A DNA stretch of 51,735 bases from Deltaproteobacteria bacterium (GTDB lineage: Bacteria; Desulfobacterota; Syntrophobacteria; Syntrophobacterales; Syntrophobacteraceae), in contig JAJYDE010000026.1 of assembly GCA_021777755.1 (NCBI GenBank), forward strand, positions 1-51,735, read 5' to 3'. Both the position numbers and the translations under genes were made by a program. Each line of letters opens with the position of its first letter. Position 1 is the first letter of the stretch. Shown piece by piece: positions 22,724 to 36,626 of the stretch. The notes under the pieces are model-generated. The model was given only the letters and a program-made list of their open reading frames with translations, was not told the origin of the DNA and ran no database searches.

Positions 22724-22864
22724 CTAAACGGCGCCTCCGCATTCGGACCTGATTTGAAATGAGGCCGGTAGCCCCGAGCCGACTTCCGGCCGTGTCCACC
22801 CCGGCACTCCAAAAACGGGAGTCCGAGGCCTAAAGATTCGATCCGGGCAGCAGCCGCGAAACAT

Positions 22865-33938: not shown

Positions 33939-34916
33939 ATGCGGTTTCTGTCCATACCGGCCTTGCTGCTTCTGGTGTGCTGCCTTTTTGCAAACGCGAC
34001 GGCGGGTCCGGTCGCGGATCGCGTCAAAGCGAGCGCCCTTGTGCACTGCGGCGGAGTTGCGCGCCCGGGCCTCGCGTTTCCCGACACCCACGGCCGCTGG
34101 CAGGGCCTTGAAGTCGATCTTTGCCGCGCGGTGGCCGTTGCCGTCTCGGGCGCCCGGGGCCGCGCGGTATTTCACGGCTATAAGACCGATAAAGATTTCG
34201 ATGCGGTACGAAACGGCGGGGATGATATCTATTTTTTAACAGGCACCGAGATCGCCCGGCATAAGCTGGCCGGCCTTGTGGTTCCCGGTCCCGCCGTCTT
34301 CTTTGAAACCCGAAACCTCATGGTCGCCGCTAAATTTTCCGCCCACCATGTGGGGGCTCTCGCCGCGGATAGTATCTGCTATAAAATCGGAAGTCCTGTC
34401 GAACAGGACCTAAACGCCTATTTCGCCCGACTGGGCAAACACTTCCTCAACAGGGCCTTTTCCGAGGACGGGGAAATGATCGATGCCTATAAAACCCGAA
34501 ATTGCCACGCCCTGGCCGCGGAAATCACCCGGCTTGCCGCCATCCGCCAAGGCGGCGCACAAACCCGCACAGCCGACCGCATTCTTCCCGAAACCCTTTC
34601 GGCCTTCCCCGTGATTGCCGCAACCACCACTTCGGACGGTAACTGGTCGGCTATTGTGGCATGGACCGTCGATACGCTTATCAGCGCCGAGCGGACTCCA
34701 ACCCTTTGGACAAACAGCGGCCCCGCCGCCATGCCCGTCTTTGCCCCCGAACTGGGGCTCGACAAGAAATGGCAGGACCGTGTCCTCAAGGCTGTTGGCA
34801 ATTACGGTGAAATACTGGCTCGCAATGTCGGCCGCAACTCGCCCCTGAAACTGCCCCCCGGTCTTAATGCCAACCAGGTGAAAGGAGGCCTGCTCCTCGG
34901 GCCGTTTTGCCAATAG
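33939..34916 (+). CDS. Periplasmic amino-acid-type ABC transporter substrate-binding protein
   Basis: 325 residues from the ATG at 33939, which exposes a signal peptide (MRFLSIPALLLLVCCLFANA, cleavage near TAG). The earlier in-frame start lies within the post-folD hairpin and is unlikely. The mature part has the family 3 solute-binding pattern: FPDTHGRWQGLEVDLCRAVA, then a second lobe with AEITRLAAIRQGG and TTTSDGNWSAIVAWTVDTL. It resembles the general L-amino-acid binding proteins AapJ/BztA. No permease or ATPase gene is next to it, so it is orphan here. A role in signalling or partnership with a distant transporter is possible. Confidence 0.75.
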   Translation: MRFLSIPALLLLVCCLFANATAGPVADRVKASALVHCGGVARPGLAFPDTHGRWQGLEVDLCRAVAVAVSGARGRAVFHGYKTDKDFDAVRNGGDDIYFLTGTEIARHKLAGLVVPGPAVFFETRNLMVAAKFSAHHVGALAADSICYKIGSPVEQDLNAYFARLGKHFLNRAFSEDGEMIDAYKTRNCHALAAEITRLAAIRQGGAQTRTADRILPETLSAFPVIAATTTSDGNWSAIVAWTVDTLISAERTPTLWTNSGPAAMPVFAPELGLDKKWQDRVLKAVGNYGEILARNVGRNSPLKLPPGLNANQVKGGLLLGPFCQ

Positions 34917-34983: not shown

Positions 34984-35370
34984 TCAGTTATCGAGCAACC
35001 CGGCCTTGCGCCGCACCTCTTCAAGAACCCTTTCGGTCAACTCCTCGTCGTTTAGCCTTCCTTCCACGTAATCGCTCCAAACGAGGAATTTATCGAAAAA
35101 GAAGGCTTGCAGCCCGGCGTTCTGGCTAATAGATCTGAAAATCTCGTTTGCCCGCCTGGCCCTTTTTCTCCGCTGCTGCTCCTCCTTGTCCCGAACGAGG
35201 TTATCTTCCCTGGATATCAGCGGCTTTCCAATCAGTTGAGAATATTGTTCAGCCCCCGGTCCAAATCCATCGGGATCCGCCCCGGTCTGCATTCCCATCC
35301 CGCTATTTGCAAAAGGCAACAACCCGGCTGCCGAGCCCGGGCATTTTTGTTTCAAATTTGTCAGGACCAT
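34984..35370 (-). CDS. Unknown protein under CIRCE control
   Basis: About 128 residues if it starts at ATG 35370 (AGGA 8 bases upstream). In-frame ATGs also exist at 35379, 35409 and 35430, but the last lies inside the CIRCE operator and has no ribosome site. The N-terminal part after the start (VLTNLKQKCPGS) and the middle (DKEEQQRRKRARRANEIFR) are charged and helical. The end (EGRLNDEELTERVLEEVRRKAG) is amphipathic. No cysteine motif or membrane segment is seen, and I do not recognise the family. The heat-shock operator and consensus promoter upstream argue that it is a real, stress-induced gene, perhaps an accessory chaperone-like protein. Confidence 0.65.
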   Translation of the reverse strand: MVLTNLKQKCPGSAAGLLPFANSGMGMQTGADPDGFGPGAEQYSQLIGKPLISREDNLVRDKEEQQRRKRARRANEIFRSISQNAGLQAFFFDKFLVWSDYVEGRLNDEELTERVLEEVRRKAGLLDN

Positions 35371-35414
35371 GGAAACCATCCTTTCATAGGCCTTAAGGGA
35401 GCCGGCCATCTGCG

Positions 35415-35441
35415 CTAGCACTCGACACATACGAGTGCCAA
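35415..35441. promoter_or_regulatory. CIRCE element (HrcA operator)
   Basis: Minus-strand reading TTGGCACTC-N9-GAGTGCTAG against consensus TTAGCACTC-N9-GAGTGCTAA. The 9-base spacer is exact and all central bases match. It spans the expected transcription start of the promoter at 35443-35471, which is typical for HrcA repression. Confidence 0.9.
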
Positions 35442-35442
35442 T

Positions 35443-35471
35443 AATCTAGTCGCGATCGTTTCCAAAGTCAA
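35443..35471 (-). promoter_or_regulatory. Sigma-70 promoter upstream of the CIRCE element
   Basis: On the minus strand TTGACT (35471-35466), 17-base spacer, TAGATT (35448-35443). The expected start site lies about 7 bases further on, inside the CIRCE operator. Confidence 0.8.
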
Positions 35472-35491: not shown

Positions 35492-36568
35492 CTAGAGGAA
35501 AAGAGAAAAGGAAAGCCCTTTGCGCCGCCGTATGGCTTCGAGCAGGCCGGTCGTGCCGGTCATCATGTTGTCGCCAAGGGGGGCGCCGTAGACGACGGGG
35601 AGTTTTGAATTTTCTATCAGCCGCCGCTTGGGGCCGGTGGCAACTATGAGTTCAATGGCCTCGAAGCCCGAAGCTTTCCTGAGGTAGGCACCGTGGCCGC
35701 CTTCGGAAAGCACCCGCTGGTGAAGGAGCTTGCCGTCGGCAAGATCGACCAGGAGGGACTCGAGTTTTTCCAGGCCGAGATCGCGGGTGTGGTATTCGAC
35801 GATGCCCGCAATCCGTGTTCCCTCGATGGCTGCGCAGACGGTGTGGGAGGTGGCTATATCGAGCACGATGAATTTGTTTCGACCCCTCAGTTGAAAATCC
35901 ATCGACGCACCAAGAATTGCCGCCATGCCGCTGTCCATGACATAGACTTCCCGGCACGGAAGCTTGGAGGCCGTGTCCGCGGCGGACCGCAAACGGTTCA
36001 GGTAGGAGGGGATGCTCTTTTTTTCGTAGAGCAGGGCTTCGGGGGAGGGTTTTTGTTCGAGGGCGGCTTTCATGATTTCATGTCTAAAGTCCAGGTGGGA
36101 TTTGCCTTGGGAGGCCACCCCGTGGTCCTGGGCGCACACCCCCACGATGTCGAACTCGAAGGGGACGCCAAAACCGGTAACCAGGGCTTCCAGTCTTTTA
36201 CGCGGCAAATCGGAAAGCTCGAGTACGGAAAACTCCCCCGAAGCGGCATACTCTGCCGCCTGCAAGTCATCGACGACCGCAAGGCCGGCCCTTTTGAGGC
36301 GCTCCAAATCATGGCTGAGCGTCATGGCCGCGGAAGCCGAAAGGATCACCCGTGCCTTCGGGGCATGCCTTGAGAGAACTTCCAGAAGAGCACCCCCGCC
36401 CATTTCGACCCCTGTGACCAGGATATCGCCGGAAATGTTTTGCGCCTGCTCGGCGGCGCAGAGCACCGGGGAGCGCACGACGGCCTTGTAGTGGATTCCG
36501 GTCTCACTGTCGAAATAAAGTATATCCAATGTTCCGGCGCCCACGTCCAGAAGCAGGAACCTGCTCAT
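35492..36568 (-). CDS. DUF1786 family protein (actin-like ATPase fold)
   Basis: 358 residues from the ATG at 36568 (GGGAG 7 bases upstream); a longer in-frame start has poor context. The start FLLLDVGAGTLDILYFD is a phosphate-1 motif of the sugar kinase/HSP70/actin superfamily. A second region, KFIVLDIATSHTVCAAIEG, fits phosphate-2. It ends with NMMTGTTGLLEAIRRRKG. DUF1786 proteins occur in anaerobes and archaea; their function is unknown to me. It may be an activating ATPase for a metalloenzyme. It is separated from the upstream HMA-like gene on the same strand by about 58 bases. Confidence 0.75.
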   Translation of the reverse strand: MSRFLLLDVGAGTLDILYFDSETGIHYKAVVRSPVLCAAEQAQNISGDILVTGVEMGGGALLEVLSRHAPKARVILSASAAMTLSHDLERLKRAGLAVVDDLQAAEYAASGEFSVLELSDLPRKRLEALVTGFGVPFEFDIVGVCAQDHGVASQGKSHLDFRHEIMKAALEQKPSPEALLYEKKSIPSYLNRLRSAADTASKLPCREVYVMDSGMAAILGASMDFQLRGRNKFIVLDIATSHTVCAAIEGTRIAGIVEYHTRDLGLEKLESLLVDLADGKLLHQRVLSEGGHGAYLRKASGFEAIELIVATGPKRRLIENSKLPVVYGAPLGDNMMTGTTGLLEAIRRRKGLSFSLFL

Positions 36569-36626
36569 TTCTCGACTCCCTAAGTGTCGTCGCCCCTGCC
36601 GTTGCAAAACACCGCGGGGATGACTC

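Follow-up and report, generated by a model that had tools for sequence, protein, structure and literature searches.

A small, lineage-restricted gene of Syntrophobacteraceae that very probably belongs to the HrcA/CIRCE heat-shock regulon

Within the stretch of DNA analysed here (51,735 nucleotides, referred to as the window), a gene for a 128-residue orphan protein (34984..35370, minus strand) lies behind its own promoter and a CIRCE operator. We consider it highly probable that this gene is a single-gene HrcA/CIRCE heat-shock unit, repressed by HrcA and released under stress. Since a chaperone-type operator is conserved before the gene in six related species, we regard this small helical gene as very probably a new part of the heat-shock response of its host bacteria.

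The promoter, which has the hexamers and spacing given in the preliminary description and lies on the minus strand, combines a -35 hexamer TTGACT (35466..35471) with a -10 hexamer TAGATT (35443..35448) across a 17-base spacer. As a unit (35471..35443) it matches the consensus at 9 of 12 letters and is the only such promoter between 34850 and 35550, a region whose shuffled versions would be expected to yield 0.2; CTTGAC at the -35 box and CTA at the -10 box are invariant across the six orthologous loci. After a gap of one base follows the CIRCE operator, identified by pattern match as TTGGCACTC-N9-GAGTGCTAG (35415..35441, minus strand), which in full, from 35441 to 35415, reads TTGGCACTC-GTATGTGTC-GAGTGCTAG. 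The operator had been called exact, and this holds for its N9 spacing and for its 6+6 core, perfect at 12 of 12 letters, but not for the outer arms: compared with the consensus TTAGCACTC-N9-GAGTGCTAA, the full arms agree at 16 of 18 letters and differ at two. It is the single CIRCE match in the window, where 0.02 would be expected per shuffled copy at up to three mismatches, and of 400 copies of the window generated by a first-order Markov model none contained the exact 6+6 core. A second core with one mismatch (22804-22824) was dismissed as chance, its outer arms being unmatched and no long open reading frame lying there. Transcription would be expected to start at about 35436, a position that CIRCE spans.

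The program-listed reading frame starts at ATG 35430, within the operator, and this start was rejected both for that position and for not being common to the orthologues. In a six-way alignment, the first in-frame start shared by all six is ATG 35370, which sits behind the invariant ribosome-binding site GAAAGGATGG (35376..35385, minus strand) and opens 128 codons, with the stop codon ending at 34984. With the start at ATG 35370, CIRCE therefore lies at -71, within the 5' leader region. A DUF1786 gene (35492..36571, also minus strand) comes immediately upstream but is no part of the CIRCE unit, and on the opposite flank a convergent gene, weakly similar to amino-acid ABC-transporter binding proteins, ends at 34916.

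Among 97 genomes searched for relatives of the protein, 26 gave any match at E 1e-3; the orthologues are the six near-full-length matches (E 3.2e-54 or better), all within the window's genus, which is represented by 11 genomes. Promoter, CIRCE (one to three mismatches) and ribosome-binding site precede every one of the six, CIRCE beginning 71-76 bases before the ATG, and the TTGAC box lies 30 bases before CIRCE in five loci and 27 in the sixth (G010). In pairwise comparisons among the six loci, the twelve core letters of CIRCE are identical in 180 of 180 cases, the six outer-arm letters in 52 of 90 and the nine spacer letters in 44 of 135. Across the 15 orthologue pairs the coding sequence has dS values of 0.75-1.81 and dN values of 0.08-0.24, dN being far the smaller in every pair, which shows purifying selection on the protein. 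An operator core that stays unchanged while synonymous sites diverge widely is what one would expect if the operator is bound, and a chance origin of the repeat at 35415-35441 was rejected on the shuffled controls together with this conservation. The preliminary description had put the gene forward as a candidate new HrcA-regulon member and had raised the possible absence of CIRCE before orthologues; the element is present before all six, and its joint conservation with promoter and spacing, along with hrcA in the genome, supports the proposal. As a control, no CIRCE site at up to four mismatches is present at any of 24 further loci of the protein family (L007-L030), and in the roughly 700 bases upstream of seven single-domain paralogues from the genus the best sites have 7-9 mismatches.

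The exact CIRCE core occurs at five places in the 4.2-Mb genome from which the window derives, and a reversed control pattern at none. These five cores belong to two groESL operons, hrcA, the 128-residue protein's gene and L031, the last lying inside a histidine-kinase-like reading frame and looking like chance; apart from the one described here, the intergenic sites stand before groESL (twice) and hrcA. The two groESL operons (L032 and L034) are separate, each with its own CIRCE. Across the 11 genomes of the genus, exact cores are found at 41 places: 19 at groEL, 10 at hrcA, 6 at the gene described here, 2 at Hsp20 genes, 1 at a DnaJ-domain gene, an assignment based solely on position and orientation, and 3 at chance or unassigned sites, namely L031, L083 (five outer mismatches) and L092 (an unplaced region of G006). 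The genus regulon looks wider than groESL and hrcA, since cores also precede Hsp20 and DnaJ-domain genes: in G001 a core precedes an Hsp20 pair with a DnaJ-domain gene behind it (L087), in G009 before a single Hsp20 gene (L088), and in G008 about 175 bases before a DnaJ-domain gene (L103). The core in G006 (L092:1498-1524, two outer mismatches) is near an AAA_25 ATPase gene, perhaps on a mobile element. The regulator itself is encoded in the window's genome, where hrcA is matched by its profile at E 2.8e-93, above the curated cut-off, and it was found in 79 of the 97 genomes, including 10 of the 11 of the genus. For G005, a draft of about 290 contigs that carries the gene and its CIRCE, hrcA was not found, perhaps owing to an assembly gap.

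We envision the unit as operating in the manner of its chaperone counterparts. Housekeeping RNA polymerase would transcribe from TTGACT-17-TAGATT, and HrcA, kept active by free GroESL, would bind CIRCE over the start site and repress the gene. When misfolded proteins occupy GroEL, HrcA would lose activity, and the gene would presumably be induced alongside groESL and hrcA-grpE-dnaK. HrcA binding and stress derepression at 35415-35441 are predicted here from sequence; for HrcA in other systems it is established, as described in the part of PMC3842655 covered here, that repression needs available GroESL and is lifted once non-native proteins arise.

Other explanations of the locus were weighed against this one. 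It is very unlikely that CIRCE arose by chance or is a relic repeat, and that the gene is constitutive or read through from the DUF1786 gene, even though the latter is the immediate same-strand neighbour upstream in all six loci and the core at L031 is an apparent chance occurrence in the same genome. This reading is opposed by the gene's own conserved promoter, which stands between the two genes, by arms that are invariant in six species while the spacer has diverged, and by three genomes of the genus (G002, G003 and G006) that have DUF1786 but neither the gene nor CIRCE beside it, the best sites there having 6-7 mismatches.

Adjacency to DUF1786 in all six loci could likewise suggest that CIRCE chiefly controls something else, such as that neighbour or a small RNA, but the promoter, the operator, the ribosome-binding site and the frame are oriented away from DUF1786 and have been conserved as a set, the 128-residue frame is under purifying selection, and an Rfam search returned no match; we rate such a target as very improbable. 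An RNA thermometer in the leader, acting besides or instead of HrcA, would find some encouragement in a GGGCC/GGCCC-like inverted repeat that most of the six leaders carry between CIRCE and the ribosome-binding site (35380-35414 in the window); yet none of the six folds better than its own shuffles (z -0.01 to 1.25), and we hold this reading to be highly doubtful.

The preliminary description had called the product unrecognised and helical, and so it appears: the window protein matches no Pfam or NCBIfam family at E up to 1, which rejects GroES, GroEL, DnaK, DnaJ, GrpE and Hsp20 as identities, and a profile search found no PDB relatives (best 0.31). A structure model built from a 31-row alignment (mean pLDDT 68.5) is mostly confident in helices 54-85, 95-103 and 108-127 and mostly below 50 in residues 1-43, suggesting a disordered N-terminus followed by a three-helix C-terminal domain. 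Structural searches returned nothing beyond weak helical matches: Foldseek gave none at E 0.001, and the best VIA-align Z, 5.8, is within the chance range for helical models. Chains of the DnaK substrate domain appeared among the hits (Foldseek ranks 7 and 16; Z 4.5 and 3.5) but tie with unrelated helical bundles, and therefore nothing is drawn from them. Towards its end the protein has the turn-helix pattern G-[IL]-x-x-E-[FL], as do the SHOCT and DUF1707 SHOCT-like domains of Pfam. A relation to SHOCT (PF09851) is not supported: it gives no Pfam match, its model misses the gene in the window's genome (G000) at E 1e-3, an hhalign comparison of profiles covers 15 columns with 28% probability, and the domain of the 128-residue protein has one more long helix; DUF1707 does not match the window protein either, its best value being 0.067, in 2 of 31 members. 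We tentatively suggest that the product may be a small protein with an accessory part in the proteostasis response, its conserved aromatic three-helix C-terminal domain perhaps acting on a partner or as an oligomer. A rather unlikely extension would make this protein, with its disordered tail and three helices, the founder of a new lineage-restricted heat-shock family, recruited once to the HrcA regulon in one clade of Syntrophobacteraceae, that serves as an adaptor or co-chaperone for GroEL or DnaK, with the CIRCE-free paralogues serving other conditions.

The gene is present in 6 of the 11 genomes of the genus and missing from 5, and is therefore dispensable at genus level. The relatives, which have a domain of roughly 50-80 residues once or twice, were found in 24 of 26 genomes of the same family; a sample of 395 genomes from the phylum yielded them in 6, every one from that family. 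The 97-genome search added a clear match in a genome from a different family of the order (G037) and a weak match in G050. Relatives are thus almost restricted to one family, Syntrophobacteraceae by its named MAGs, those carrying an orthologue being labelled Syntrophobacteraceae or Deltaproteobacteria. Five of the gene-bearing genomes could be placed on an HrcA tree, where they make up one side of a branch (100/99 support) with G003, a genome without the gene, next to them; the protein-family tree unites the six orthologues in a clade (100/100) whose stem is long, at 1.12 changes per column. Next to DUF1786 in G002, G003 and G006, no remnants of the gene were detected (tblastn, E 1). The simplest reading is that the gene was gained or recruited once. 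A phage or plasmid origin was rejected, with no tblastn match for the gene in phage or plasmid sequences, none in viral contigs and none in PADLOC; PHROGs gave one weak match at 0.063.

A two-repeat paralogue in the window's genome (L104:3942-4382, G000:C49) has no CIRCE core, and its neighbours we take to be genes for S-adenosylmethionine synthetase and adenosylhomocysteinase. In five of seven CIRCE-free paralogues (L011, L023, L024, L027 and L028), an element resembling GAATGGTTATCTT with 0-2 mismatches precedes the matched part by 95-176 bases, and it is weaker in L010 (4 mismatches) and L008 (6); it is only loosely Fur-box-like (5-8 mismatches).

The unit resembles the delta-proteobacterial groESL and hrcA-grpE-dnaK HrcA/CIRCE units in the part of PMC545781 covered here, with the same operator consensus, the same 9-base spacing and a similar distance to the start codon, but differs in that its product is no known chaperone. 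That part places delta-proteobacterial CIRCE elements at -45 to -99, a range that includes all six orthologue positions (-71 to -76), describes a D. vulgaris groESL CIRCE whose mismatches fall on outer-arm letters of the same kind, and names groESL, the hrcA operon and rpoH as the sole CIRCE targets of the species it covers. Another likeness is wcw_0502 of Waddlia chondrophila, as far as PMC12038028 is covered here: it too is a lineage-restricted gene for something other than a classic chaperone, with CIRCE conserved in its homologues. However, it is Chlamydiota-specific, from an unrelated phylum, and described as a secretion-system effector; HrcA occupancy has been measured there. Predicted HrcA members of L. 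plantarum also include a gene of unknown function. Odd, lineage-restricted CIRCE genes thus have precedents, and the kind is known. No report of the gene was found in the non-subscription literature searched on HrcA or CIRCE in Syntrophobacter, Syntrophobacteraceae and Deltaproteobacteria. Our searches turned up no name for the proposed regulon member or for its protein family.

The regulatory principle itself is textbook. HrcA regulons are usually small and composed of classic chaperones, and a conserved, taxon-restricted gene within one points to an unstudied stress protein. The case would illustrate a single recruitment into the regulon, with the CIRCE-free paralogues as built-in controls, and induction by GroEL titration would offer a definite handle on a family of proteins left nameless by sequence searches.
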